Source: Saprospiraceae bacterium (lineage in GTDB: Bacteria; Bacteroidota; Bacteroidia; Chitinophagales; Saprospiraceae). Taken from it: DNA of 33,548 bases. The DNA is taken from NCBI GenBank assembly GCA_013140975.1, contig JABFRV010000131.1, positions 1-33,548 of the forward strand, given 5' to 3'. The position numbers were made by a program, and so were the translations under genes. Positions 46-30,047 of this stretch are shown here, in pieces. The notes under the pieces are model-generated. The model was not told the DNA's origin and searched no databases. It saw nothing but the letters and a program-made list of their open reading frames with translations. Positions within the stretch are counted from its first letter, which is position 1, and each line of letters opens with the position of its first letter.

Positions 46-1248
46 ATGTCAATCCTAGATAATGAGCTAAAAAATAGACATTATGAGAATGTTATCATTA
101 TGGGTTTACAACTTAGTAATGTTATGTTCAATACAAATCAAAATGCTAATAGAATTAGAATAGGTAAAAAAGTTGAGGAAGCAATCTTAAGTTGTGATAG
201 AGAATTAGGGGAGATTATTATCGATGGGAAAGAATTATCAAAAGATTTCATAAGCGTTAAGTTAAACATAGATGATTTAGGTTGGTCATTGTATCAGTTA
301 GACAAAAAAAAGTGGGCAGAGGCCGTTGAAGTTATACTCAAAGGAGTTTACTCGGCTGAAAAAATGGCAATTGACTTAAATGCAATTAATGATTCGATGA
401 GTAGTGATTTCCTTAATATGGCATTAAAGGGTTATCGTCACCTAGTAGGAATATTTTTAGATAGTGATATTAAAAAAATAAAGGACGGCATTCTTATTGA
501 GAAAATAATTAAAACAATAATCTCATCAGGTAACATACTCAGAAATCATAACCTAACTGATTTTTTAAGTGACGCCACAATAGTTGAACATGATGACTTA
601 ACACTAAAAACTTACTTGTTAAATGGTATAGATGATGATTTGTATTTGAAAGATTTTATAGACAATGAGTTTTTGAGTAGAATGAAAAATATTATTAAAA
701 TTTACAACAAAATAGAGATTCAAGTCAAATCAAAGGCAGTAAGCGATTTGTATTACTCTTTTTCAAGAAACAATGTTAAGTTAATAAAATCTGAACCTGA
801 CCCACAAGCTAAAAGTAATTTGATTCAAGAAGCAAAAATATTTGCAGATTTATATAAAGGGTCCGAAAAGAATCATAAGAGTAAAAGATGGATAAGATAT
901 AGAAGCCTTATCAATGAACTAAATTTCGCCAATGTTAATAAAAATAATATATCAAATTTAATACATGAAATCACAGACACAATAATGCAATGTACAACAA
1001 GAACCGATTTACTCTATCGAAATTCTACATTATTAGTACACACTTTGGCAAAACAATTTGAACTTTCTGTTAAATCTAATTCTACGCTAACAGTTGGACA
1101 AAAGAAAGAAAAAATTCAATTATCCTTGACTAAAATAAACAAAATCAAAGAAGATTTAAAAAGGGTTGATGTTATTATTGATAGCGATTTTTTACAATCA
1201 CACAAAAGTGCTAAAAGTTATTTTAAAAAAGAAATGAACTCGTTATGA
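46..1248 (+). CDS. Unknown 400-residue protein, first gene of the small-molecule operon
   Basis: No family is recognised. The protein is soluble-looking, Lys/Asp/Asn-rich and probably mostly helical, with no signal peptide or membrane segment. The C-terminal part (about residues 345-400) is strongly charged and could form a coiled coil. The ATG at 46 is the first in the frame and has only AT-rich DNA before it, so it may open the operon, although the window edge hides anything further upstream. Its stop overlaps the next start by four bases (ATGA), which implies translational coupling. From position alone it is inferred to belong to the kinase/phosphatase/NIS-synthetase pathway that follows; no catalytic motif is visible. 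Confidence 0.75.
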   Translation: MSILDNELKNRHYENVIIMGLQLSNVMFNTNQNANRIRIGKKVEEAILSCDRELGEIIIDGKELSKDFISVKLNIDDLGWSLYQLDKKKWAEAVEVILKGVYSAEKMAIDLNAINDSMSSDFLNMALKGYRHLVGIFLDSDIKKIKDGILIEKIIKTIISSGNILRNHNLTDFLSDATIVEHDDLTLKTYLLNGIDDDLYLKDFIDNEFLSRMKNIIKIYNKIEIQVKSKAVSDLYYSFSRNNVKLIKSEPDPQAKSNLIQEAKIFADLYKGSEKNHKSKRWIRYRSLINELNFANVNKNNISNLIHEITDTIMQCTTRTDLLYRNSTLLVHTLAKQFELSVKSNSTLTVGQKKEKIQLSLTKINKIKEDLKRVDVIIDSDFLQSHKSAKSYFKKEMNSL

Positions 1249-1433
1249 AAGATTTAGAAATATTTGAAAACAGTAACTACATTGACCAATTTATTAATTT
1301 GATTAATGAGCTGGGTACAAATGAATTTAAACCACATGAAATTTTATTTAATAATATGAAAAAATTCATTCAAGACACTGATGAATTTAATAATAAGGTT
1401 ATAGAATTGCAAAAAAATGACTTGGAAGAATGA
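1245..1433 (+). CDS. Unknown 62-residue acidic small protein
   Basis: A short, acidic, helix-prone reading frame sits between two coding genes and overlaps both by four bases (ATGA at 1245-1248 and again at 1430-1433). Double coupling with no spare bases is the main evidence that it is real. The composition (many Asn, Glu, Asp, Phe and Leu, no Cys) suggests a small soluble protein that could act as a partner, carrier or adaptor of a neighbour. There is no Ser in a DSL-type context, so an acyl-carrier role is not supported. Function unknown. Confidence 0.6.
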   Translation: MKDLEIFENSNYIDQFINLINELGTNEFKPHEILFNNMKKFIQDTDEFNNKVIELQKNDLEE

Positions 1434-1999
1434 AAACAATATATCTAATATTAGGGGCAATAGGGTCGGGTAAAAGCACCCTAGCAGAATCATTAGGCTT
1501 AAAGTTGAATGTGGACTTTGTTAGTTCAGATTTATATAAAAAGGTTTATTTTAATAATTATGCAACCTTATCAACAGGCTATAGGAAAGCTGATTTACTT
1601 GTAAAGTTTAAATTAAGTATGAATTGCCAAAATGCTGTAAGCTTTATTTATGAACTTTGTCCCACAAACTTGGAGAAAATATTGACTATAACTGAATTGA
1701 AAAAAAAATATTCGTATCGTATAATCTCTTTCATAATTGGCACAGACAGTTCTCAAGTCAACATCAATAGAACAAAAAAGAGGATTCAGGTAGAGAACGC
1801 AGATTTTGTAGCAGTTGATAAAGTCGTTTCTAGATACGATTTGACTTTTGAGAATTTACCTCAATTAATTAGTATATCAGATGAGAATTATTTTATTGAC
1901 AATACAGATTTCTTTAAAGTAGTTGGATATATGAAAAACACAAAACTTCACCTGTTTAATAAGTCAAATTGGTTAAGTAATTTATTAATAAAAAAATAA
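1430..1999 (+). CDS. P-loop kinase, zeta-toxin/COG4185-like
   Basis: A 189-residue P-loop NTPase. The Walker A motif GAIGSGKST lies at residues 9-17 right behind the first beta strand. An SSD motif (residues 32-34) stands where zeta-toxin-like kinases carry substrate and base contacts. A segment NRTKKR...VDKVVSRYD (about 113-137) followed by FIDNTD (155-160) matches the lid and C-terminal pattern of the zeta-toxin/COG4185 predicted kinases. These enzymes phosphorylate sugars, sugar nucleotides or other small molecules. Here the operon context (second kinase, HAD phosphatase, isomerase, NIS synthetase) favours a metabolic kinase over a toxin, and no epsilon-type antitoxin is evident. The start overlaps the upstream stop by four bases. 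Substrate unknown. Confidence 0.75.
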   Translation: MKTIYLILGAIGSGKSTLAESLGLKLNVDFVSSDLYKKVYFNNYATLSTGYRKADLLVKFKLSMNCQNAVSFIYELCPTNLEKILTITELKKKYSYRIISFIIGTDSSQVNINRTKKRIQVENADFVAVDKVVSRYDLTFENLPQLISISDENYFIDNTDFFKVVGYMKNTKLHLFNKSNWLSNLLIKK

Positions 2000-2009
2000 A
2001 TAATTAGAA

Positions 2010-2693
2010 ATGAAATTAATATATCAAAATGAAGAGTTAGCAGAATTGCTTGTAAAGTTTGTCCTCAATAAATATAAATTCATTTATATTTCTGGGAATG
2101 GCGGTTCAGGAAAAACCACTTTTAGTAAAATTTTAGTGGACAAACTTGAATCAATGCAAATTGGTGTCAATTGCATTGATATGGATGAATTTGTTTTAGA
2201 TACAAAAATGCGTAAATCAGCTCAAAAACAATGGTTAGATGAATTTGGCAACAATAGAGTTAGTGAGTACACAACTTCATTTAAAGAGTCGTATTACCTT
2301 TCTGCAGCAGAGGTTATTATTCATTCCATAAAAAATGGATTGAATTGTTTCTATAAACCAAAGAAAAGCAAAACATTCGTTCAGGTATTTGCAAATTATC
2401 CAATAACAATTATTGAAGGTGTCGGCTCAGCATTTTTGGAAAAAAATAATGATGCTATTGGCTTATTTTTTATGTGTGATGAAGAGATAGAAGTGGCAAG
2501 ACGAATTCAAAGAGCAAGGGATGGCGAAAGCCAATTGGAGTATGTGGATGTAAAAAGGAAAGCAGTAGAACGAAATGAACAGTTTAGGATTAATATCTTA
2601 CCTAATAAATCAAAGTTTGATATAGAGCTGTCTAGTTTAGAAAATTATGATTTACAAATTACAAAAGATGCCCAAAAAATTTTTATTAAATGA
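2010..2693 (+). CDS. Uridine-kinase-like P-loop kinase
   Basis: A 227-residue P-loop kinase of the uridine/phosphoribulokinase type. It has Walker A GNGGSGKTT (residues 29-37), an acidic DMDEF motif (about 57-61) where this family places the substrate-binding Asp, the strand ITIIEG (about 132-137) corresponding to the family's hhhhEG motif, and an Arg-rich lid EVARRIQRARDGE (about 161-173). The reaction would be ATP-dependent phosphorylation of a hydroxyl on a nucleoside, sugar or similar molecule; the actual substrate cannot be read from the sequence. It follows the first kinase after ten bases and overlaps the HAD phosphatase by four bases. Two unrelated kinases side by side suggest two phosphorylations or two substrates in one pathway. 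Confidence 0.8.
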   Translation: MKLIYQNEELAELLVKFVLNKYKFIYISGNGGSGKTTFSKILVDKLESMQIGVNCIDMDEFVLDTKMRKSAQKQWLDEFGNNRVSEYTTSFKESYYLSAAEVIIHSIKNGLNCFYKPKKSKTFVQVFANYPITIIEGVGSAFLEKNNDAIGLFFMCDEEIEVARRIQRARDGESQLEYVDVKRKAVERNEQFRINILPNKSKFDIELSSLENYDLQITKDAQKIFIK

Positions 2694-3391
2694 AGTTGTT
2701 TTACAAGTATAAATATATAATTTTTGATTTAGATGATACCCTTTTTGATTATCAGGCTACAGAAATTGAATCTTTAAAACAAACCTGCAAAGATTTTGGA
2801 ATCCCTTTTAAAGAACAGGTTTCATACTATAACTATAAAGTAGCAAACAACATTGCTAAAAAATCAATTAATGCTTTAAATAGTCCTTCTGATTTTAAGT
2901 TGTTTCGCAATCAGAGAGCAAAACTTTTTTTGGAAAATGATAATAATAAAACTGTCAATGTCGAAGACTTTGTTGCCCTACAATTAAAGCATTCAGAAAG
3001 AGGAATTCTTATTGATGGTGTTTATGAAACTATAAAAGAAATTCACAATTTTGTTAAAGTTATTGTTGGCACAAATGGGTCAACACATCCCCGTTTAAAC
3101 AAAATTAGAAACTCTAAAATATCGTCTTTCATAAATCATTTTTACTCCTCTGAGATGTTAGGCTTACAAAAACCAAATCCAGAATTTTATTTGAAAATAA
3201 TAGACAATATGTCAATAGATAATATATCAGAAGTATTGGTTGTTGGAAATGATTTTAATAAAGATATTGTTGGAGCAATAAATGCAAAAATAGATTGTTG
3301 CCATTTCCCTTTTAATGAACCTATGAATTTAAATGAAAATGTCTTTACTATAGAAAGTTTTTCAGACCTTTTAAACATAATAAAACCTTAA
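2690..3391 (+). CDS. HAD-superfamily hydrolase, YjjG/noncanonical 5'-nucleotidase-like
   Basis: A 233-residue HAD phosphatase with all four motifs: motif I DLDDT (nucleophile Asp13, acid/base Asp15), motif II in VGTNG (Thr128-Asn129), motif III Lys161 in LQKPNP, and motif IV VVGNDFNKD (Asp188 and Asp192). A helical C1 cap lies between motifs I and II. Layout and length resemble YjjG, which removes phosphate from pyrimidine nucleotides, but HAD specificity is set by the cap and is uncertain. It overlaps the upstream kinase (ATGA) and abuts the TIM-barrel gene without a gap. It may release a phosphorylated intermediate made by the two kinases. Confidence 0.85.
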   Translation: MKLFYKYKYIIFDLDDTLFDYQATEIESLKQTCKDFGIPFKEQVSYYNYKVANNIAKKSINALNSPSDFKLFRNQRAKLFLENDNNKTVNVEDFVALQLKHSERGILIDGVYETIKEIHNFVKVIVGTNGSTHPRLNKIRNSKISSFINHFYSSEMLGLQKPNPEFYLKIIDNMSIDNISEVLVVGNDFNKDIVGAINAKIDCCHFPFNEPMNLNENVFTIESFSDLLNIIKP

Positions 3392-4201
3392 GTGATGCAA
3401 AAGAATATAAATTTTAACTTTAAGATGAATTCAACCCCAACTGAGCGTATAGCCTTTTTGGAGTCAGTTGGTTTCAATGGTGTTTTTTTGTACACTCAAT
3501 ATTCTCCAATAGATTACATTGAAGAAATAAGTAAGTCAAAATTAAATATAGAGACATTACATCTACCTTATAAAGAGATTGCTAATGGCACGGTTATCGA
3601 TTCTAAGTTTGTTAATTCTTTATGGTTTAATAATGATAGAAGCAATCAGTTTACTAAATGGTTGATTGAAGAGGTAAGATTTGCCCAAAAGTATGGAATA
3701 AAGAAAGTTGTTGCACATATTACAGGCGGCGAAAATCCTCCAGATTGGAATCAATATGGTTTGGATAATATTTCTAGAATCTTAGAAGAGTGCGAAAAAT
3801 GTGGTATTGATTTTTGCATAGAGAATACTCGTAGAATTGATTATATTCAATACGTTTTAGAGAATATTAAATCAGATAAATTAAAATTTTGCTTTGATAG
3901 TGGTCATGCAAATGCACTTACTAAAAATCTCGAAGATTTCCCATGGCAATCCTTCTCAAATAAATTAAGTTGCTTGCATCTTCACGATAATAACGGTTTA
4001 AAGGATGAGCATTTGCCTCCTTTTTTTGGAAATATTGACTGGAAATCACTAATAAATAAATTATTTGCATTTAATCCTAATTTGGAGTTAACGTTAGAGG
4101 TAAGGGCAAACGATGAACAAAGAGCCACACTCACTGATTTTGAATATTTGCAACTTTGTTTTCAAAGTGTTTCTAAACTCGAAACCATTTTAGATATTTA
4201 A
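3392..4201 (+). CDS. Sugar phosphate isomerase/epimerase (AP-endonuclease-2 TIM barrel)
   Basis: A 269-residue TIM barrel of the xylose-isomerase-like family. The expected divalent-metal ligands are visible: Glu144 in CIENT, Asp169 and His172 in FDSGHAN, His198 in LHLHDN and Glu236 in LTLEVR. Members isomerise or epimerise sugars and related polyols such as inosose or hydroxypyruvate. The start is a GTG at 3392 directly after the upstream stop, and an ATG at 3395 in the same frame is an equally good start. The gene ends four bases before the NIS-synthetase-like gene. In this operon it probably makes a sugar- or polyol-derived building block. Substrate unknown. Confidence 0.85.
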   Translation: MMQKNINFNFKMNSTPTERIAFLESVGFNGVFLYTQYSPIDYIEEISKSKLNIETLHLPYKEIANGTVIDSKFVNSLWFNNDRSNQFTKWLIEEVRFAQKYGIKKVVAHITGGENPPDWNQYGLDNISRILEECEKCGIDFCIENTRRIDYIQYVLENIKSDKLKFCFDSGHANALTKNLEDFPWQSFSNKLSCLHLHDNNGLKDEHLPPFFGNIDWKSLINKLFAFNPNLELTLEVRANDEQRATLTDFEYLQLCFQSVSKLETILDI

Positions 4202-4205
4202 AAAT

Positions 4206-5468
4206 ATGAAATTAGAAGAGTTTTGGAATAATCCAATTGAAGCATACTTAAAAGCAGAAAGATATGTTAATAATGGTTCTCGAAGTGGAATCAAAAATAC
4301 AACGTCCTTAGAAACATCTCCGTTATCTTCAATTGATGAGTTTGAGTTATATTCAATAGAGTCAGATGATTTAATTTGTATTGGTCAAGATGAAGAGTTT
4401 GTTTTCCCATCAAAATATGTATTAATACACCCTGATTTAGTTGAATCAGAGTTATTGCTTTCATACAAAGGATGTATATCAAGAACTAATATTAAAGTAA
4501 GTCCAACTGCAAGTGGAAGAACTACTTATTGTAGTGCATATGGTTGTTTTATAAAACTTGCGTATTTTGAAATTTTAGGAAGAATCCCAAGACATTTAGG
4601 ACTGGAAATATTGCAGTCAGCATTTGAGGTCACAAACAATTTGAAATCATTGATTGATGCAGGGGTTTGCAATAGTAGCTTTGCTATTCTCAGAGAAGAT
4701 AAAGGCTTATTAACTAAACTAAACCTTTCAGATTCAGAAACCTACGAATTGGGAGTAATATTTCGTGAAGGCAAACCATATCCTAGCATTCAAGAATATT
4801 TTGCTATGGTGCCTTTTTTCTCTTTATTTAGTAAGGAATTAAAGCCTGATTCTAATTGGGAATTATGTGAATATCAAGATGAGCCTTTAATTGTTCAATT
4901 ATTTTTACAGCAGAGCGAATTTTCAACTATTTCAGATTTTACTTTAAATAAAATTCTAAAACCTCTTTTTCATACTTATTTTGATTCTCTTTTATTAGGG
5001 GGTATTGAGCTTGAGGCTCATGCCCAAAATATGCTAATTTCAATAAGTAGAAATTTTGAAGTTAAGCAAATTGTATGTAGAGACTTGGAATCAGCAGGAA
5101 GAGATATTTCTTTAATGCAGGAAAGAAATATTTTCTTTAATGATATTGCAAAATCATACAAATACATAAAAAAAACTATTCCTGAAAGTGGTGAAAAATA
5201 TTCAACATATCAAAGAACACATAGTTTTATGTTTGATTTTAAACTTGGCGAATACATTGTAACTCCTTTAATCGATTGTATTTGTAATTTTGACCCAACC
5301 GTAAATAGAGATTTTCTTGTTTCTGAAATTAAATTATTTAACAGGGACTTTATAGAGCAGTTTCCAAGCGATTATTTTCCAGTTCAATGGTGCGATTATG
5401 ATGATGTTGTATGGGGCAATAGTGTGAAAAAAAAATATAACTGGTATGACAATCCAAAGTATAGATGA
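4206..5468 (+). CDS. IucA/IucC-family (NIS synthetase-like) protein
   Basis: A 420-residue protein with the hallmarks of NRPS-independent siderophore synthetases. IHP (residues 74-76) corresponds to the vHPWQ region, SPTASGRT (99-106) to the ATP-binding T-S-x-R-T loop, and ELEAHAQN (268-275) followed by CRDLE (about 291-295) to the C-terminal EaHgQN...RD motif. Such enzymes adenylate a carboxylate, classically citrate, and condense it with an amine or alcohol. This one is clearly shorter than the usual 580-620 residues, and no hydroxylase, acetyltransferase, TonB receptor or siderophore exporter is near. A different amide or ester product is therefore possible. It overlaps the serine hydrolase gene by 23 bases. 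Confidence 0.8.
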   Translation: MKLEEFWNNPIEAYLKAERYVNNGSRSGIKNTTSLETSPLSSIDEFELYSIESDDLICIGQDEEFVFPSKYVLIHPDLVESELLLSYKGCISRTNIKVSPTASGRTTYCSAYGCFIKLAYFEILGRIPRHLGLEILQSAFEVTNNLKSLIDAGVCNSSFAILREDKGLLTKLNLSDSETYELGVIFREGKPYPSIQEYFAMVPFFSLFSKELKPDSNWELCEYQDEPLIVQLFLQQSEFSTISDFTLNKILKPLFHTYFDSLLLGGIELEAHAQNMLISISRNFEVKQIVCRDLESAGRDISLMQERNIFFNDIAKSYKYIKKTIPESGEKYSTYQRTHSFMFDFKLGEYIVTPLIDCICNFDPTVNRDFLVSEIKLFNRDFIEQFPSDYFPVQWCDYDDVVWGNSVKKKYNWYDNPKYR

Positions 5469-6378
5469 TTTCAAGAGTAAGTTCAACGAGCTTGTTGAAA
5501 TAATTAAAACAAATCCAGAATTAAATGTCATTAACCTTAAAGCATCACTAGCAGACATTCACTTGTCTCATGATTTTGGTAGTATTGTTGCTCCTCATAA
5601 CACTAGGTCAATCTCCAAGTTAATACTTGCTTATTGTTATGGTATATTCTTAGAAAAGTATAATCAGGGTTTTATTTCTTTAGACAGTGAAATATCAACT
5701 CTTAACCTGTCAAGCCAATACCTAAAAGAAAAATTAGCTAATGTTACTATAAAGCATTTGCTCACTAATACTATTGGATATGACAGAGAATTACTGTTTA
5801 GTAAAGATATTAAAGCTTGTGGAGAGCATGATTTGATACAAATATTATTAGACGAAGAATTAAAGTATCCACCAGGTAATCATTTTGTATACTCCAATGC
5901 TTCCAGCTATGTTTTGTCAATAATTTTTCAAGATATAACAGGCATGAATATTTCTGTGTTTGCTAATCAGTTTATTTTTAAAAAGATTGGTATAGATGAA
6001 TTTGAATGGGGCAACTATGGTTCTTATTGTAAAGGAGGAACAGGATTGTATTTAAACATAAACAATCTTCATAGTATTGGAACACTATTGCTTAATGATG
6101 GCCGATTTAATAGTATACAAATAGTGCCAAAAGGATGGATTAAAACGATGTGTAAGCCACATGTACATAAACTGAACAAAGATTATACCAATGACCCATT
6201 AGGTCGAAAAGCTTATGGTTTTTGTTTATGGATTATTGATGAGAATGTAGTGTTTTCGAATGGGAATCAGGGGCAGTTTTTAATTGTAAACAAAGAAAAG
6301 AAAATTGTTGTTTCTGTAATGTCCGATAGCAGAAAACCTATTGAAATTGCAACATATTTAAAAAAAATAGTTTTTTAA
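5446..6378 (+). CDS. Serine hydrolase, class C beta-lactamase/transpeptidase fold
   Basis: A 310-residue beta-lactamase-related hydrolase. The SxxK catalytic motif is SISK (Ser55-Lys58), the YxN motif is YSN (149-151) followed by the family-typical S-Y-x-L helix, and a glycine-rich NGNQGQF stretch near the C terminus takes the place of the HxG/KTG strand. No signal peptide is visible, so it appears cytoplasmic, unlike true beta-lactamases. Members hydrolyse or transfer esters and amides, for example EstB-like esterases. As last gene, overlapping the NIS-synthetase-like gene by 23 bases, it may process, trans-esterify or detoxify the product. No clear terminator follows. Confidence 0.85.
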   Translation: MTIQSIDDFKSKFNELVEIIKTNPELNVINLKASLADIHLSHDFGSIVAPHNTRSISKLILAYCYGIFLEKYNQGFISLDSEISTLNLSSQYLKEKLANVTIKHLLTNTIGYDRELLFSKDIKACGEHDLIQILLDEELKYPPGNHFVYSNASSYVLSIIFQDITGMNISVFANQFIFKKIGIDEFEWGNYGSYCKGGTGLYLNINNLHSIGTLLLNDGRFNSIQIVPKGWIKTMCKPHVHKLNKDYTNDPLGRKAYGFCLWIIDENVVFSNGNQGQFLIVNKEKKIVVSVMSDSRKPIEIATYLKKIVF

Positions 6379-7200
6379 CCTTCTTTTTTAAACATTACCC
6401 TTAGCTGCCACCGCACAGAAAAGACGGCTTAGTGCTTTGCCACCGCACAAGCAAACGCTTCAAAGCACTCTATGGTATTGCAGTCAGTTTTTAACTGTCG
6501 TATTTTTTGTGGCTATGCTTCCCAAGCATTTGGCACATTGCCTGTTCCGCTTTACTCCACAGTCAAAGAGCCAAGCCAAGCCAGAGCATAGCAACAAAAA
6601 AACGCTACACTCCAACCACCACCACCGTTTCGCTTATGCCAGTATAAAAACTGCCTGAAGCTAAATTACATAATGTTGCATTATAGCACAGCCTTTTTCC
6701 CAGCTTGTGCAAGCACCCAAACGCACAGTCTGTCCTATAATAACATTATGTAAAATAGCCAATACCATAGGCATTAAAAAAAGCAATTTGTTAGTTTACT
6801 TATTTTATCGGTATTGCTTTTTTTAATGCAAGCCGTCTTTTCTACCCACCGCACACAGCATCAGTAAACCATCCCTACGCCCCACCCACCCATTTTCAGC
6901 GGTATCAGAAAAAATAAAGCATTTGTTTTTTGCTGGCTATGTGCTGCATAAAGTGTTCATTTATTCCATTCCACTTCGTTTCAGAACGCCACTTCGTGGC
7001 ACTACTTTCACTTTGCTACATTTCATAAATTTCTCACATTATTTCAGCACCGCACAGCACGAGTATTTCGTGCCTCATACACTTGCTTCTTAGCCACCGC
7101 ACATTTTTCATCGGTATGCTTTATTTTTTCTGAGATTTATTGCCCCATGCCTACGCTTCTGATGGTCATTGAAAATTTATAAAGAAAAGGATATTTAATT
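6379..7200. repeat. Hairpin-rich noncoding island with ACCGCAC words
   Basis: No convincing gene. The stretch is richer in GC than the operon before it and carries several perfect inverted repeats: 6419-6430 with 6830-6841 (AAAAGACGGCTT / AAGCCGTCTTTT), 6666-6677 with 6742-6753 (TTACATAATGTT), 6771-6787 with 6813-6829 (GCATTAAAAAAAGCAAT), and 6905-6922 with 7116-7133 (18 bases). Small hairpins occur at 6988-7000 (GCCAC-TTC-GTGGC) and 7057-7073 (GCACGA-GTATT-TCGTGC). The word CACCGCAC occurs five times (near 6409, 6441, 6847, 7048, 7095). The 6771/6813 and 6419/6830 repeats are nested, with their right arms directly adjacent, so the block 6419-6841 can fold as one large structure. Function unknown. 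Confidence 0.7.
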
Positions 7201-7253
7201 GATAATTCTTTTCCAAAGAAAAAAACAACAGGAACAAAAAGGAAAGCAAAGTT

Positions 7254-7385
7254 AGGTGGCGGGCTGATAAAAAAGCAAAAAGACTACGGCATAATAAAAA
7301 GAGAAAAAAGCTACGCTTTATTTTTTTCTCTTTTTAGCCTTCGGCACTTATTCCGTTTCCTTTTGGCTTTTTTGCCTCGCCACCT
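7254..7385 (+). repeat. Structured element, copy 1
   Basis: Outer stem AGGTGGCG (7254-7261) with CGCCACCT (7378-7385), helped further out by GAAAGC/GCTTTC and AAAG/CTTT pairs. The conserved left core AGACTACGGCATAAT lies at 7281-7295, and the right core with ACTTATTCCGTTTCC at 7346-7360. Inner stem AAAGAGAAAAAA with TTTTTTCTCTTT, and a mini-hairpin GCC-TTC-GGC at 7337-7345. The cores pair imperfectly with each other (ATAA/TTAT, ACGG/CCGT). The outer and inner stems and the mini-hairpin differ in sequence from copies 2 and 3 but keep pairing. It ends about 95 bases before the gene at 7481. Confidence 0.75.
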
Positions 7386-7480
7386 CTTTGAATGCTTTCT
7401 TTTTTTTCTGTTTTTTTCTTTGTAAAAATATTTGTTGGTTTTAGCCACAGCAAGGAACAAAGCAGCTCACAATTAAAGCG

Positions 7481-7912
7481 ATGTTCAAAATGCAAAAAGT
7501 AAACATTTACACCTACAATCCAAAAAATCAAAGTAATGAATTTGATATTTACGCCTTATGTAAGGGCTTAAATAGTGGCAAACCACTTGAAAAACCTTGT
7601 CCTAACTCTTTTGTATTAGCTTGTAAGAATCAAGCTGAAAAAGACTTTTATACAACATTGCTTTTTGGTCTATGGAAAGCAAAGCATTTTTACCCATATC
7701 ATACAGGGTCAGTAATTCCATTTATAAGAATTTCAGATTTTAGGCAAGTTGTTAAAGAGCAAGCCCAAATAGTTAATGCCGAAGCTTTTGCAAAAGATGT
7801 ACAGAAAGTAAAACTTATAGAAGCAAAGCAAAAACAGATCTACGAACAAATGGCACTACTAAACGATGTCAAAAGAGCCCTTATTTACAGGCATTTCAAG
7901 AGCAAATCTTGA
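7481..7912 (+). CDS. DUF6943-like conserved Bacteroidota protein
   Basis: A 143-residue soluble protein. The core (LCKGLNSGKPLEKPCPNSF at about residues 27-45, then KDFYTTLLFGLWKAKHFYPYHTGSVIPFI) resembles, from memory, the DUF6943 family found in Bacteroidota mobile and accessory regions; this naming is not verified. The C-terminal half is a charged helix. Two starts are possible: ATG 7481 (MFKMQKVN) and ATG 7490 (MQKVN); the second fits the usual family start better. Structured element copy 1 lies upstream and copy 2 follows 54 bases after the stop. Function unknown. Confidence 0.75.
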   Translation: MFKMQKVNIYTYNPKNQSNEFDIYALCKGLNSGKPLEKPCPNSFVLACKNQAEKDFYTTLLFGLWKAKHFYPYHTGSVIPFIRISDFRQVVKEQAQIVNAEAFAKDVQKVKLIEAKQKQIYEQMALLNDVKRALIYRHFKSKS

Positions 7913-7965
7913 TGGTGACTGTAAGTGCCGACTACTGCCATAAAAAAAATATAAATATGCAAAAG

Positions 7966-8123
7966 TAGCAAGGGTGGCAACGCACAAAGCCAACCAAAAA
8001 AAACCAAAAGACTACGGCATAATGCAAAAAAAAAGTTGCAAGGCAAAACCAAATTTGCATCTATTTTTTTGCACCCTTCGGGACTTATTCCGTTTCCTTT
8101 TGGTTTTTTTATCCCCCTTGCTA
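7966..8123 (+). repeat. Structured element, copy 2
   Basis: Outer stem TAGCAAGGG (7966-7974) with CCCTTGCTA (8115-8123). The conserved left core AGACTACGGCATAAT is at 8009-8023, preceded by an A-rich CCAAA arm. Inner stem GCAAAAAAAA with TTTTTTTTGC, mini-hairpin CCC-TTC-GGG at 8074-8082, then the right core ACTTATTCCGTTTCC and CTTTTGGTTTTTTT. The A-rich arm pairs with the final T-run. It ends 27 bases before the ATG of the small gene at 8151. Bases in the stems are replaced relative to copy 1 on both sides, so pairing is preserved. Confidence 0.8.
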
Positions 8124-8150
8124 TGAAAAGCATATTAAATTTTTTTTATT

Positions 8151-8384
8151 ATGTCAGTACAGCACATTTCACAGTCAGCCACCATTCCAGCAGTTTGCTC
8201 TTGTGGTGCATCTTATTCAGGTTCTTTTGTTCCTGTTAGTCGTTTTGCCTTCCAGCGTAGGGTTCGTAGGCGTTTTTTCTCTTGGTGTCCTTCTATGGGT
8301 TGCCGTGTCTATTCATTGGCTTGTGGTTGCTCCCTTTGGGTTTATTCCACTGGCCAGCGTTTTGTTTCGTCTTTGCCCTTTTAG
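8151..8384 (+). CDS. 77-residue Cys/Arg-rich small protein, paralogue A
   Basis: Supported by homology to the protein at 8694-8927, which has the same length. The two align over the C-terminal 50 residues: PVSRFAFQRRVRR with PLSPFAYQRYIRR, then a VY-L-CGC-x-WVY segment and a shared SxLPF end. The start contexts also match (AAATTTTTTTTATT before the ATG here, AAATTTATTTATT in the other). A perfect palindrome GCCCTTTTAGGGC (8375-8387) spans the stop codon in both. The protein is basic, with several Cys (CSCG, CGC) that could bind a metal, though no standard zinc finger is recognised. Alternative frames across this stretch are open but show no paralogue. Function unknown. Confidence 0.6.
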   Translation: MSVQHISQSATIPAVCSCGASYSGSFVPVSRFAFQRRVRRRFFSWCPSMGCRVYSLACGCSLWVYSTGQRFVSSLPF

Positions 8385-8529
8385 GGCATTGGCGTTACAA
8401 TAATTTTTTTGTACAACCTAATGCAAAATAGTAGCAATTATTATTTACGAAAATTGGATAAAAATAGTATCACCAAATGCCAACTGAAGTAGCTGTTTGT
8501 ACATAAATAATTTTTATACACAAAGGTAA

Positions 8530-8664
8530 CAAGTCGGATTTTTAAAAAACAAAAAGACTACGGCATAATGGCAAGGCAAATAGGATGCTTCGCAAATTGA
8601 TTTTTGTTGCCTTGCCACCCTTCGGGACTTATTCCGTTTCCTTTTGGTTTTTTAATCCGCCTTG
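8530..8664 (+). repeat. Structured element, copy 3
   Basis: Outer stem CAAGTCGGATT (8530-8540) with AATCCGCCTTG (8654-8664), one internal mismatch. Left core AGACTACGGCATAAT (8555-8569), a perfect ten-base-pair inner stem GGCAAGGCAA (8570-8579) with TTGCCTTGCC (8607-8616), mini-hairpin CCC-TTC-GGG (8618-8626), then the right core ACTTATTCCGTTTCC and CTTTTGGTTTTTT. It ends 29 bases before the ATG at 8694, nearly the same distance as copy 2 to its gene. The best formed of the three copies, it shows the three-way-junction layout clearly. Confidence 0.8.
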
Positions 8665-8693
8665 CAAAAAGAAGTGTATAAAATTTATTTATT

Positions 8694-8927
8694 ATGCACA
8701 ATCATCCACGTATTTCAGCAGGCACCCAGTTAGGTAGTTGCCATTTTACCCAGCAGGTTCTACATCAGCACTTGCCTTTATCACCTTTTGCTTATCAGCG
8801 TTATATCCGCAGGGCATCATTAGCACATCAGCCAGTTTTTGGCATCAAGGTTTATCAGTTGCCTTGTGGTTGTTATGTTTGGTGTTATCCATCAGGTGTT
8901 CGTGAGCTTTCAGCATTGCCCTTTTAG
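8694..8927 (+). CDS. 77-residue small protein, paralogue B
   Basis: Same length as the protein at 8151-8384, with clear similarity in the C-terminal 50 residues (SPFAYQRYIRR, KVYQLPCGCYVW, SALPF). It is richer in His and Gln and less in Cys than paralogue A, yet keeps the CGC motif and the LPF end. The stop codon again lies inside the palindrome GCCCTTTTAGGGC (8928-8940). Structured element copy 3 is 29 bases upstream. Divergence at the N terminus with conservation at the C terminus suggests an old duplication or separate acquisition of two cassettes. No known family is recognised and no function is assigned. Confidence 0.65.
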   Translation: MHNHPRISAGTQLGSCHFTQQVLHQHLPLSPFAYQRYIRRASLAHQPVFGIKVYQLPCGCYVWCYPSGVRELSALPF

Positions 8928-9006
8928 GGCTTTGCTATGGCTGTAAAACAGAAAACCCCACCACAAGGGCAGGGTTTCTATTTAACCGATAAGAAAGAAA
9001 TTCTAA

Positions 9007-9762
9007 TTACACACCTTCAACTTTCACAATGGCTAATGGGTTGAAAACACCATTTTTCAATGGGTACATTTGACCGTTTACCTCTTGGTAAAATTCAATT
9101 CCCATCACCAAAAACAATGGACTTGTACTATTCGCAGTTACGGTGTTAGTCAAAGTAATTGCAGCCGTTGCAGTGTTATCCCAGGCGATGATTGCAGTAT
9201 CATTTGCATCTATCACAAAAGTTTCATTTTCAAAATCAACTTCTGCTCCTGCACTTTCAATTTTAAAGTGAGTAGTACCACTTGGAGCCGCAATCATATT
9301 AGCAGGAATAAATGGAGCCAATGAAACTTCCAAAGTTCCAGCCACTCTATTAATAGCACTTGTAAAAGGTGCATAAAGGGCATTCCCAAGCTTTCCTTTG
9401 ATGTTAAATTCAAAGCCTGTCAAAAGCTCCGTTTCGCCATCTAATACGTTTCTAAGCCCCCTTACACTTGTCAAATCAGCTTGAATTACTTTAACCATTT
9501 CAGAAGTCAATCTGCCAACCATTCGGTTGTCAGCTGAATTTTGAAGAATGTTTCTAAAAGCAGTTCTTAAAAGCTTGCCAGCTTTTCCAGCTGCACCAAA
9601 TTCAGCACCGTTTTCACGAGTACGTTGAAAGTTTGGATCATTTGCAATTCTTGAAGCATCTACACCACCTTTTTCTCTTGCAAGGTGACCGTCTTGTGTT
9701 TTGTAAAATGTGATACCACCAAGTGTACCATTCAATTTTATTAATCCTGATTGTCTAGCCAT
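9007..9762 (-). CDS. Conserved Bacteroidota protein of unknown function (MARQSG...GGITFYKT)
   Basis: A 251-residue protein starting MARQSGLIKLNGTLGGITFYKT, then a KGGVDASRIANDPNFQRTREN segment and an Ala/Gly-rich part (GAEFGAAGKAGKLLRTAFR). The C-terminal half is beta-rich with many Thr, Ala and Val. Proteins with this opening are common in Bacteroidota genomes as far as recalled, but no function is established to my knowledge. There is no signal peptide. It is convergent with the small genes to its left and stands alone on its strand. A structural or assembly role is conceivable from the repetitive beta-rich composition but is not shown. Confidence 0.85.
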   Translation of the reverse strand: MARQSGLIKLNGTLGGITFYKTQDGHLAREKGGVDASRIANDPNFQRTRENGAEFGAAGKAGKLLRTAFRNILQNSADNRMVGRLTSEMVKVIQADLTSVRGLRNVLDGETELLTGFEFNIKGKLGNALYAPFTSAINRVAGTLEVSLAPFIPANMIAAPSGTTHFKIESAGAEVDFENETFVIDANDTAIIAWDNTATAAITLTNTVTANSTSPLFLVMGIEFYQEVNGQMYPLKNGVFNPLAIVKVEGV

Positions 9763-9941
9763 TTTATTACTTTTTTAAATGTTTAGCACAAAAATATATT
9801 GCTTTGCAAGCATTATCAAACCACAGCTTCCGACATTTCCGATATTGCAACATTATTCCAACAAACACACTTTTACCTTTAAAATATTATCAATATCTTT
9901 GCCTTAGAAAATCTATACCAGAAGCATAGATAAAGTATAAA

Positions 9942-10130
9942 ATGAATAGATTGTGTATTTACCCTAAGGATATTATGGTAATCACAGGCAAAAGCGACAG
10001 ATATGGTAGATACCTTATTAAAAGGATTAAAGAGTACTTCAACAAAGAGCAACATCAAGTTGTTACAGTCGAAGAGTTCTGCCAATATATGGGCTTACAA
10101 TTGGATTCAGTTGTTAGTCAATTAAGATAG
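9942..10130 (+). CDS. Small basic protein, HTH-like Bacteroidota family
   Basis: A 62-residue protein with the pattern IYPKDIMVITGKSDRYGRYL...KEYFNKEQHQVVTVEEFCQYMGL. This resembles a small family often found in Bacteroidota accessory regions, in which a helical TGKS-x-RYARxLL segment is followed by a VTVEEFC-Y-GL end. The helix-turn-helix look and the basic first half suggest nucleic-acid binding, but this is inference. TGKS here is not a Walker A motif, because the upstream Gly residues and the strand are missing. The ATG at 9942 is the only good start. Confidence 0.65.
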   Translation: MNRLCIYPKDIMVITGKSDRYGRYLIKRIKEYFNKEQHQVVTVEEFCQYMGLQLDSVVSQLR

Positions 10131-10599
10131 TTCCCTATCTTCGCATTAGCCTTTGGTTAGGGCAAACACTCTCTAAACTAAAATTTATATCTTCTCTTAT
10201 TTGTGATGTGGTTTCACTTGTTTTGGCACTCTTTGTTGCCCAGTTGTTGCCCAAAAAATCACAAACCAATCAAAGTCCTTTGCTATCAATAGTTTACAAC
10301 TTAGCTTTACAATTTGTATCGGAAAGTAAGCTCGATCGCGCTATTTTTTATAATGAACTTATAAAAAACAAGTTCTTAAAATTTTATAAATATCCTCTTA
10401 ATAGCATCATTCTGAAAATTAATTAAAGATTCTAGCCTCAAGTATTCTACTTCATTAGTATATTAGCTTTATAAATGTAAAATACGCGTATTTTAATTGG
10501 GGTATAACCATCAATTATTGAAATATTATTTTAAAAAAATATGAATTACGAATAAATACTTCTTTTTTATTTTAAGCTTTTAAAAAAACCAAATAGCGT
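10131..10599. other. Intergenic stretch with a 16-base palindrome
   Basis: No convincing gene. There is a tandem GTTGCCCA pair around 10234-10252 and a perfect palindrome AAAATACGCGTATTTT at 10479-10494, about 105 bases before the start of the next gene, which could be an operator. A weak 72-codon frame at 10208-10426 is not supported by anything else. This stretch also separates the hairpin-rich, accessory-looking part from the more ordinary chromosome to the right, so it may contain an old element junction, but no attachment site could be defined. Confidence 0.4.
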
Positions 10600-26090: not shown

Positions 26091-26121
26091 TGCTGGCGCA
26101 AGTTTGCAACTTGTTCATGTA
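26091..26121. repeat. REP-like palindrome, copy 2
   Basis: TGCTGGCGCAAGTTTGCAAC then TTGTTCATGTA. It follows a TAnnTTTG box TATCTTTG (26066-26073) and the words GCAATATGAGT, a combination that recurs at 26232-26250. It shares an extended tail (GTACTAATAT) with copy 5. Confidence 0.65.
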
Positions 26122-26267
26122 CTAATATCGTTATAGGCTATAGAACCTATTTAAAAACATAAATGCAACATACCGAGGCTTAAATAAATTGATTGTTGCT
26201 TAAAAATTATTCTAGAGTAATTCAAGTTATTTATTTTTGCAATATGAGTAACAGATATAAATTACAT

Positions 26268-26295
26268 CAGCACAAGTTGCAAACTTGTGCCAGCA
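26268..26295. repeat. REP-like palindrome, copy 3 (most symmetrical)
   Basis: GCACAAGT (26270-26277) and ACTTGTGC (26283-26290) are perfect inverted arms around TGCAA. It lies 54 bases before the gene at 26345. Confidence 0.65.
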
Positions 26296-26344
26296 TGGGC
26301 AATGGGAACTGTTTATAATTAATTAAAAAGTCATGAACTAAATA

Positions 26345-27127: not shown

Positions 27128-27135
27128 ATTACCAC

Positions 27136-27160
27136 TGCTGGCACAAGTTTGCTACTAGTT
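27136..27160. repeat. REP-like palindrome, copy 4
   Basis: TGCTGGCACAAGTTTGCTAC followed by TAGTT, directly after the stop of the gene ending at 27127. A degenerate member of the same repeat. Confidence 0.55.
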
Positions 27161-27204
27161 CTTACACCTGCTTGTTACGTCGATGCAGTTCAAGTAATCT
27201 CACT

Positions 27205-27243
27205 TGCTGGCGCAAGTTAGCAACTTGTCCAAGTACTAATATT
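27205..27243. repeat. REP-like palindrome, copy 5
   Basis: TGCTGGCGCAAGTTAGCAAC, then TTGTCCAAGTACTAATATT. The tail matches copy 2 almost base for base, so the repeat unit is longer than the palindrome itself. Confidence 0.6.
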
Positions 27244-27370: not shown

Positions 27371-27480
27371 TTAAATTGACCACTCCAGATCGTTTTAAGC
27401 TGACCACCTGAGATCGGAGCAAATTGACCACTTCAAATCGCTCCAAATTGACCACTCCAGATCGCTCCAAATTGACCATC
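27371..27480. repeat. Left-end tandem transposase-binding repeats of the IS21 element
   Basis: Copies of A-A-A-T-T-GACCAC (or GCTGACCAC) occur near 27373, 27398, 27421, 27445 and 27470, most followed by a GATCG or AATCG word. The right end has two in inverted order. Confidence 0.7.
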
Positions 27481-27577
27481 TGGATATAGGGTTTCTTTAT
27501 CGAAGACTTCAAGTAGAATTGTTGGTACAAAGTTGTCATTTAAGGTTAAGCTTTGAGAAATCAAACTTAGTTAAAAA

Positions 27578-29910: not shown

Positions 29911-30011
29911 AATACTATCTTTGTTAAATGACTTTCGCCAGCATTTTTCGGAAATCTTCGCCAGCTTTTTTGGTGGTCAATTTGCTCCGATCTCAGGTGG
30001 TCAATTTAAGC

Positions 30012-30047
30012 GGTTTTTCCAAGAAGTTTAAAATTCGATTGAAATGA
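30012..30047 (+). pseudogene. Orphan toxin C-terminal tail, remnant 2, at the IS21 border
   Basis: Right after the IS21 right end the frame reads GFSKKFKIRLK and stops at TGA 30045-30047, overlapping the ATG of the next gene (30044). FKIRL-K is the conserved last motif of the toxin domain. The IS therefore seems to have inserted into, or recombined within, a toxin C-terminal cassette and removed all but its last dozen codons. Confidence 0.7.

Follow-up and report, generated by a model that had tools for sequence, protein, structure and literature searches.

What would a bacterial genome need the same foldable element for, three times over, with each copy standing ahead of a gene? This is the question raised by the window (i.e., the whole 33,548-nt stretch of DNA analyzed, contig JABFRV010000131.1 of the Saprospiraceae bacterium assembly GCA_013140975.1), for which an earlier note, made from the letters alone, had described copies at 7254..7385, 7966..8123 and 8530..8664, and their places, plus strand and cores were all verified. 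The cores around GACTACGGCATAAT and ACTTATTCCGTTTCCTTTTGG are invariant among the three copies and the stems differ, and every copy folds distinctly better than its dinucleotide shuffles (z of −6.9, −6.3 and −5.1 for copies 1, 2 and 3, respectively, with 0/200 shuffles folding as well in each case). Coordinates are given on the plus strand; the strand proposed to act is the minus one in all three copies, as a single-stranded DNA (ssDNA) hairpin, and in copy 1 the predicted fold pairs past the outer stem. No match at the Rfam gathering score was obtained in the window, and the sub-threshold matches within 6400–9000 were two implausible microRNA precursors (E 0.28 and 0.94).

Copy 2 ends 27 nt before the ATG at 8151 and copy 3 ends 29 nt before the ATG at 8694, just as noted earlier, and these ATGs open two 77-aa genes that are paralogues of each other by sequence (8151..8384 and 8694..8927, both on the plus strand), for the former of which neither Pfam nor PHROG gives a match up to an E of 0.1. 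Copy 1 is followed at 95 nt by a 143-codon DUF6943 gene (7481..7912, plus strand; PF22105, E 1.6e-44; ATG at 7481, second ATG at 7490), so the description of each copy as preceding a small gene suits copies 2 and 3, but not copy 1.

A covarying and widespread element

The element is real, covarying and widespread. A degenerate two-core search (one genome per species) returned at least 120 stretches with the exact core; among the 80 matches listed, the titles of three point to other phyla (all of them metagenome bins), one to none and the rest to Bacteroidota, going by the phylum to which we take each name to belong, and six stretches with the core are found on viral contigs. In an even draw of the phylum (395 genomes, own genome included), the exact core pattern is present in 18 genomes and the reversed pattern in 0, with the rows labelled only “same phylum” contributing none of the 18. 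A covariance model built from the three window copies, which is a check that the earlier note had proposed, matches 23 of the 298 genomes of the order (own genome included) at an E of 1e-4. Because the search pattern itself dictated the core, leaving the flanks and stems as the parts that could vary, the invariance of the core across the family is no finding.

Covariation was evaluated in an alignment (A5) of 132 model matches from 100 sources, amounting to 128 distinct rows. In this alignment, which is a flattering one in that it was fitted to model R1 and includes related rows along with some in which the same element is matched on its reverse strand, 92.4% of the cells pair, versus 76.7% in shuffles and 47–54% when the partners are slid by 1–3 columns (controls drawn from the same A5 rows); changes on both sides are seen in 583 cells, versus 181 ± 11 in shuffles, and in 12/12 pairs of the outer stem, although these changes do not equal independent events, since the rows are related. 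The covariation first claimed for three copies is thus strong over further ones, and the suggestion of a selected structure set before genes, perhaps acting as single-stranded DNA, was right. The three-way junction, by which the element had originally been described, turns out to be a local form: the inner stem and the mini-hairpin are filled in no more than about a quarter of the A5 rows (33 or 34 of 128 for helix 9), and so the junction does not define the family. Its members usually combine the core with a variable outer stem and, just outside that stem, a −7 box on the minus strand.

The minus-strand box and the folded geometry

Removal of elements with similar flanks reduced 153 distinct elements to a non-redundant set of 88. 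Just outside the outer stem, on its 5′ side, the motif CAAAnnTA recurs, i.e., TAnnTTTG when read on the minus strand, and it is found there in its exact form in 38 of the 88 elements, versus 4.1 in letter shuffles; an exact plus-strand TAnnTTTG occurs once across the same 88 left flanks (120 nt). The 38 exact boxes read TAnCTTTGC, G being absent from both free positions, and T and G are enriched 23–25 nt ahead of them. The Bacteroidota housekeeping promoter is reported as TTTG/TANNTTTG (PMC6847099, PMC9723704), its −7 consensus having been revised to TAHHTTTG, with G lacking at the free positions, and its −33 element being far less evident in real promoters (PMC6847099), for which reason a weak −33 signal in the elements is no objection. 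Going by its letters, the box of the elements is this Bacteroidota housekeeping −7 box TAHHTTTG. A box matrix score of at least 8 is reached by 54/88 elements on the box arm and by 3/88 on the opposite arm, where only the contrast between the arms counts, because the matrix was built from the 38 exact boxes. Counting against a promoter reading are the 21/88 elements that score below 5 and the 11/88 that have no box within one mismatch.

In the window, the −7 boxes lie on the minus strand at 7247..7254 (TAACTTTG), 7960..7967 (TACTTTTG) and 8521..8528 (TACCTTTG) for copies 1, 2 and 3, respectively. The proposed −33 elements, also on the minus strand and putative as to their role, are located at 7276..7282 (CTTTTTG, letters verified), 8005..8010 (CTTTTG) and 8550..8556 (CTTTTTG, letters verified); in copy 2, the −33 element and the box are far apart linearly, and a side hairpin of the fold shortens the distance.

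When the minus strands of the 38 box-bearing elements are folded using DNA energies, each becomes a long hairpin in which positions 1–4 of the box are mostly open (mean pairing 0.29–0.34), with the five preceding bases paired at 0.75–0.82, the next base at 0.82 and those after it at 0.61–0.79; two of the 38 have no clear outer pairing, and one more is far off the common spacing. Core and box are separated by 23–25 nt in 29/36 elements and by 19–26 nt in 35/36 when counted along the template arm, which is the shorter one, whereas looped-out stretches make the linear distance along the other arm vary between 24 and 57 nt. Subtraction of a five-base −33 block leaves, by arithmetic, a duplex of ~18–19 bp between the −33 and −7 boxes. 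The minus hairpin is stabler than the plus one in 36/38 of these folds and has the lower energy in 77/88 elements, the latter in part owing to the fixed core; the asymmetry between G.T and A.C, used as a test for the folded strand, showed no strand preference in the arms (84/3400 vs. 77/3270).

In duplex DNA, the box is directed away from the gene that follows the element. Folding of the single minus strand is predicted to place the same box between duplexes, in a bubble that is largely unpaired, and the box would then be directed into the gene. With the box numbered T−12..G−5 (PMC6847099), plus-strand RNA starts on an ssDNA template are predicted, by eye from the fold, at 7399 for copy 1 (about ±2 nt, giving a leader of ~82–91 nt), at 8135 for copy 2 (a ~16-nt leader to the ATG at 8151) and at 8679 for copy 3 (a ~15-nt leader to the ATG at 8694).

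Downstream genes, relaxase polarity and the island

A mechanical rule, by which the first gene downstream with 50 or more codons was taken, yielded a gene for 78/88 elements, or 77 after one duplicate was dropped, with the remaining 10/88 having no downstream gene in the stretch or by the rule; the rule can skip short genes, and both L148 elements were given one farther ORF, counted once. By Pfam (n = 77), this first gene encodes SSB in 15 cases, DUF6943 in 10, RadC in nine, DUF932 in eight and DUF6266 in two, with ArdC-N, ParB and others among the single cases. Since SSB, DUF6943, RadC and DUF932 together account for 42/77, precedence to a small gene does not hold family-wide either. The SSB of locus L190 was verified. 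Up to 2 kb to the right, 62 elements have a labelled gene, the first of which shares the strand of the element in 59 cases, and 26 elements have none. The elements stand in tandem ahead of successive genes, and two layouts can be told apart: type A, element–ssb–DUF932–RadC or element–ParB–element–gene, and type B, that of the window, element–DUF6943–element–77-aa gene, accompanied by the genes “MARQ” and c21.

A PF03432 relaxase is encoded in 29/40 genomes chosen among those with elements, and the window's own genome has none. In 29 element–relaxase pairs from these genomes, the two lie within 70 kb of each other on one contig; the relaxase is on the same strand in 28 of them and both on the same strand and downstream in 24. 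The five departing pairs come from G320, G322 (one of two), G327 (two of three) and G324, and in two of the five the relaxase is found 5 kb upstream. Among 10 short loci with a relaxase detected using our own profiles, four of which are also among the 29 pairs, it is downstream on the same strand in six (L025, L055, L096, L125, L187 and L190), upstream in L043 and L120, and to the left on the opposite strand in L048 and L083.

The window copies are parts of a shared module (6405..10328, left edge approximate) that comprises a non-coding conserved block, the elements, the DUF6943 and 77-aa genes, MARQ and c21, and is common in pieces (> 100 nt, ~63–89% identity) to genomes with different neighbouring DNA. 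MARQ, a 251-aa gene recurring in such islands (9007..9762, minus strand), is convergent and outside the service of the elements; its product was modelled at a mean pLDDT of 73 with a beta-rich C-terminal half, for which a structural search gave no informative match. The 62-aa gene c21 (9942..10130, plus strand) recurs near the right end of the island, which is TTTGTATCGGAAAGTA or near variants at several loci, and a tRNA gene follows just past c21 in L183, L184 and L117. To the left of the module, the genes are variable, e.g., a UvrD-like helicase and an AAA-McrBC pair in L173 and a metabolic-looking run in the window; a left end of the island and an integrase were looked for there and not found. 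Of the eight other genomes of the genus, five hold the right flank in pieces and none the left flank, which is why no empty site is readable, and a distant blastn search with 6400–9800 was uninformative (three partial plasmid matches, none in phages).

The DUF6943 protein was modelled with a mean pLDDT of 92.6, and the nearest structures are the target-recognition parts of restriction-modification specificity subunits, at Foldseek E values of 0.011–0.083 for the three best rows and a Z of at most 7.6, values that are common for models without a clear match. A resemblance to half of such a specificity subunit may accordingly be taken as a weak lead, and an anti-restriction role, a lead only, would fit an early gene.

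The single-strand promoter reading, its rivals and known systems

We consider it likely that each copy is an Frpo-like ssDNA promoter with boxes for the Bacteroidota housekeeping sigma factor, a reading that draws on several computed features: the structure and its covariation, the box with its strand and bubble, the spacing in the fold, the genes present and the polarity relative to the relaxase. A much less probable alternative is a single-strand initiation site, at which RNA polymerase/primase would mainly prime the second strand and the genes would be served incidentally: the structure would be identical, ssb is a frequent neighbour, and Frpo is reportedly named for transcription and primer RNA synthesis alike in a 1997 title by Masai and Arai. 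Priming need not track genes, however, whereas the elements stand in tandem before successive ones, share the strand of the first labelled gene nearly throughout (59/62, as above), and have predicted starts 15–16 nt from two of the window's ATGs.

Lower still do we rank an ordinary duplex promoter that would read leftward, the palindrome being incidental. In linear DNA, the box and its spacing would be enough in 18/36 elements, where the box is 24–27 nt from the core, and 13/79 elements have, within 250 nt on their left, the start of a left-reading ORF of at least 100 codons, so that a duplex role of the box is possible at some elements; yet the other 18/36 are at 30–57 nt linearly but at 19–25 nt when folded, the arms covary, right-reading ORFs of at least 100 codons start within 250 nt to the right far more often (46/81), and at tandem loci the left gene (ParB) reads toward the element. 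A structured RNA leader of the downstream mRNA, whether riboswitch-like or protein-binding, is very unlikely in our view: a covarying structure upstream of same-strand genes is what such a leader would look like, and a cis-regulatory RNA had been among the earlier suggestions, but the recurrent promoter box is on the minus strand and directed away from the genes, its exact plus-strand form occurring in one of the 88 left flanks of 120 nt, Rfam gives no gathering-score match, and the bubble coincides with the minus-strand box, which an RNA would not need. Least credible of all is a recombination hairpin bounding gene cassettes in the manner of integron attC sites, also raised earlier; the window does hold tandem element–gene units and the folded strand is imperfect, but a single core heads multi-gene runs such as ssb–DUF932–RadC, an order that recurs, with a second core between the genes not seen where integrons would have one gene per recombination site, and the flanking box is a promoter signature. 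Integron attC sites, REP sequences and insertion-sequence ends, all of them imperfect palindromes, were ruled out as identities by the gene arrangement and the promoter box.

Under the favoured ssDNA promoter reading, the minus strand would be the transferred one and, when alone, e.g., upon conjugative entry into a recipient, would form a long imperfect hairpin whose 3′ arm would act as the non-template strand: the −33 element, TTTG-like, would lie at the core, and the −7 box TAHHTTTG ~18–19 bp toward the base, held open by the bubble and followed by more duplex. RNA polymerase would use this hairpin, taking the 5′ arm and the flank as template, and would make the mRNA of the downstream genes from the predicted start sites, such that SSB, RadC, DUF932, DUF6943 and the small proteins would be transcribed ahead of second-strand synthesis; once the DNA is duplex, the same box would be directed away from the genes. 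The promoter reading would also imply that islands without a relaxase travel as single strands with outside help.

A comparable layout is seen on two named plasmids typed MOBB (Arenibacter pSMS7 and a Flagellimonas plasmid), which carry a ParB relative and a one-strand run of JAB, N-6 methylase, ssb, DUF6876 and ParB genes. A core search allowing up to three errors gave weak matches alone on these MOBB plasmids, which we did not count, and a core scan of a Bacteroides uniformis plasmid stretch gave no convincing match. On the Flagellimonas plasmid, to which the close look and the folding were devoted, the JAB–ParB run and the mobilisation genes share a strand, with the run reading toward the latter, and a single minus-strand TAnnTTTG, against 0 on the plus strand, stands in the stretch before each of JAB, methylase, ssb and ParB. 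Ahead of JAB and methylase, a hairpin extends past the box and holds it in an internal loop of 6 nt (−25.0 and −23.1 kcal/mol, respectively, vs. −16.0 ± 2.9 and −16.3 ± 3.1 kcal/mol in letter shuffles), with TTG, by eye, 18 nt ahead of the box, which is the same layout as that of the elements, without the core; the boxes of ssb and ParB are > 330 nt from the ATG, and their folds are less clear. Other Flagellimonas genes (1814, ParA, 7877, 11949 and BfmA) have a minus-strand box within 300 nt as well, so the box alone is not diagnostic. A bolder generalization, to which we would give somewhat less than an even chance, is that the hairpin class consists of phylum-specific strand-switching promoters shared by Bacteroidota mobile elements, in which several hairpins unrelated in sequence (the GACTACGG core family as well as others on MOBB plasmids) would have converged on a stem, an open −7 box and a downstream duplex, that it marks relaxase-less cargo islands as single-stranded passengers, and that the genes behind it, DUF6943 included, are early anti-defence genes.

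ssDNA promoters were discovered in enterobacterial plasmids (PMC11541004), and a trick known from there, that of switching on genes on mobile DNA during its single-strand entry, is now probably seen in a very different bacterial group. A search for ssDNA promoters by sigma-70 boxes, as described in PMC11541004, would miss these elements. If the reading is true, a recognisable Bacteroidota class would provide a list of the genes first expressed in a new host by conjugative/hitch-hiking elements, where anti-defence genes are to be expected, it would become testable when and where DUF6943 and the 77-aa proteins act, and the transferred strand would become predictable for mobile elements lacking a known oriT.

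Among known systems, the single-strand origins and RNA-polymerase-primed origins of rolling-circle and filamentous replicons have a folded single strand on which RNA polymerase acts, as is proposed for the elements, but those origins prime replication, whereas the elements precede genes. With the Bacteroidota housekeeping promoter, the elements share the −7 box and the absence of G at its two free positions (PMC6847099, PMC9723704), and differ from it in that their box is opposite to the gene strand and reads into the gene only if folded. On the F plasmid, Frpo1 and Frpo2 single strands fold into stem-loops with −10 and −35 boxes, Frpo2 precedes ssb, and both are required for early expression in the recipient (PMC9849209); the leading regions of many plasmids are described as holding ssDNA promoters and genes for SSB, methylases and anti-restriction, the lagging region being the typical place of the relaxase, and new ssDNA promoter candidates were searched there with TTGACA/TATAAT (PMC11541004). 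The main text of that paper has no word starting with “Bacteroid”, and in the open-licence literature, at the level of titles and abstract openings, no report of ssDNA promoters in Bacteroidota was found.

The likeness of our elements to the Frpo/ssi sequences of F, ColIb-P9 and relatives is one of layout on paper rather than of sequence comparison: in both, a folded single strand rebuilds promoter boxes (in prediction for the elements, 21/88 of which lack a good box) before ssb or early genes, there is more than one copy per mobile element, and the genes keep (mostly so for the elements) to one strand relative to the relaxase (PMC9849209, PMC11541004), with the elements here standing before, and being oriented into, the leading-region type of genes counted above (SSB, RadC, DUF932 and, once, ArdC-N). 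The boxes themselves differ, being TTGACA/TATAAT in Frpo/ssi and the Bacteroidota −33/−7 pair (TTTG/TAHHTTTG) in the elements, which are further set apart by the core GACTACGGCATAA/TTATTCCGTTTCC, by the open −7 box and, among the matches listed, by their occurrence almost only under Bacteroidota titles.

The conserved non-coding block and its left flank

At the left of the island, positions 6419-6770 form a block devoid of coding that is kept across ten sequences, the alignment of which gives a mean column identity of 71% over 6400-6870; within the block, CACTCCAACCACCACCACCGTTTCGCTTATGCCAGTATAAAA is strongly kept and an inverted repeat, TTACATAATGTT/AACATTATGTAA, is found, making the block a candidate oriT or some other site. 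The gene content immediately to its left differs between loci, with metabolic-looking genes in the window (46-6378), whereas locus L173 carries a UvrD-like helicase and an AAA-McrBC pair there (128-5914).

Hairpins elsewhere and further repeats

An identical element loop, ACGGTTTCCTCCCTAAAGGTACCCTCCAA, recurs in several Chryseobacterium and Sphingobacterium loci (L020, L029, L053, L070 and similar ones) despite their differing outer arms. A second hairpin family, CATTTTTC..GAAAAATG, is seen on a MOBB plasmid (L207, 44255-45482), where the hairpins precede the plasmid's JAB and N-6 methylase genes and their bubble contains an outward-pointing TAnnTTTG.

The window also holds AAATTGACCACTCCAGATCG-like 24-nt direct repeats and, 2.5 kb off, an inverted copy (27373-27492 and 29973-30021), which are perhaps the ends of a different element, as well as repeated palindromic units, TGCTGGCGCAAGTTTGCAACTTGT (26091-26303 and 27128-27242).

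The DUF6943 protein

In its predicted structure the DUF6943 protein (7481-7912), encoded downstream of the first element copy, is similar to one half of a specificity subunit from restriction-modification systems, with Z no higher than 7.6, and it may be an anti-restriction protein.
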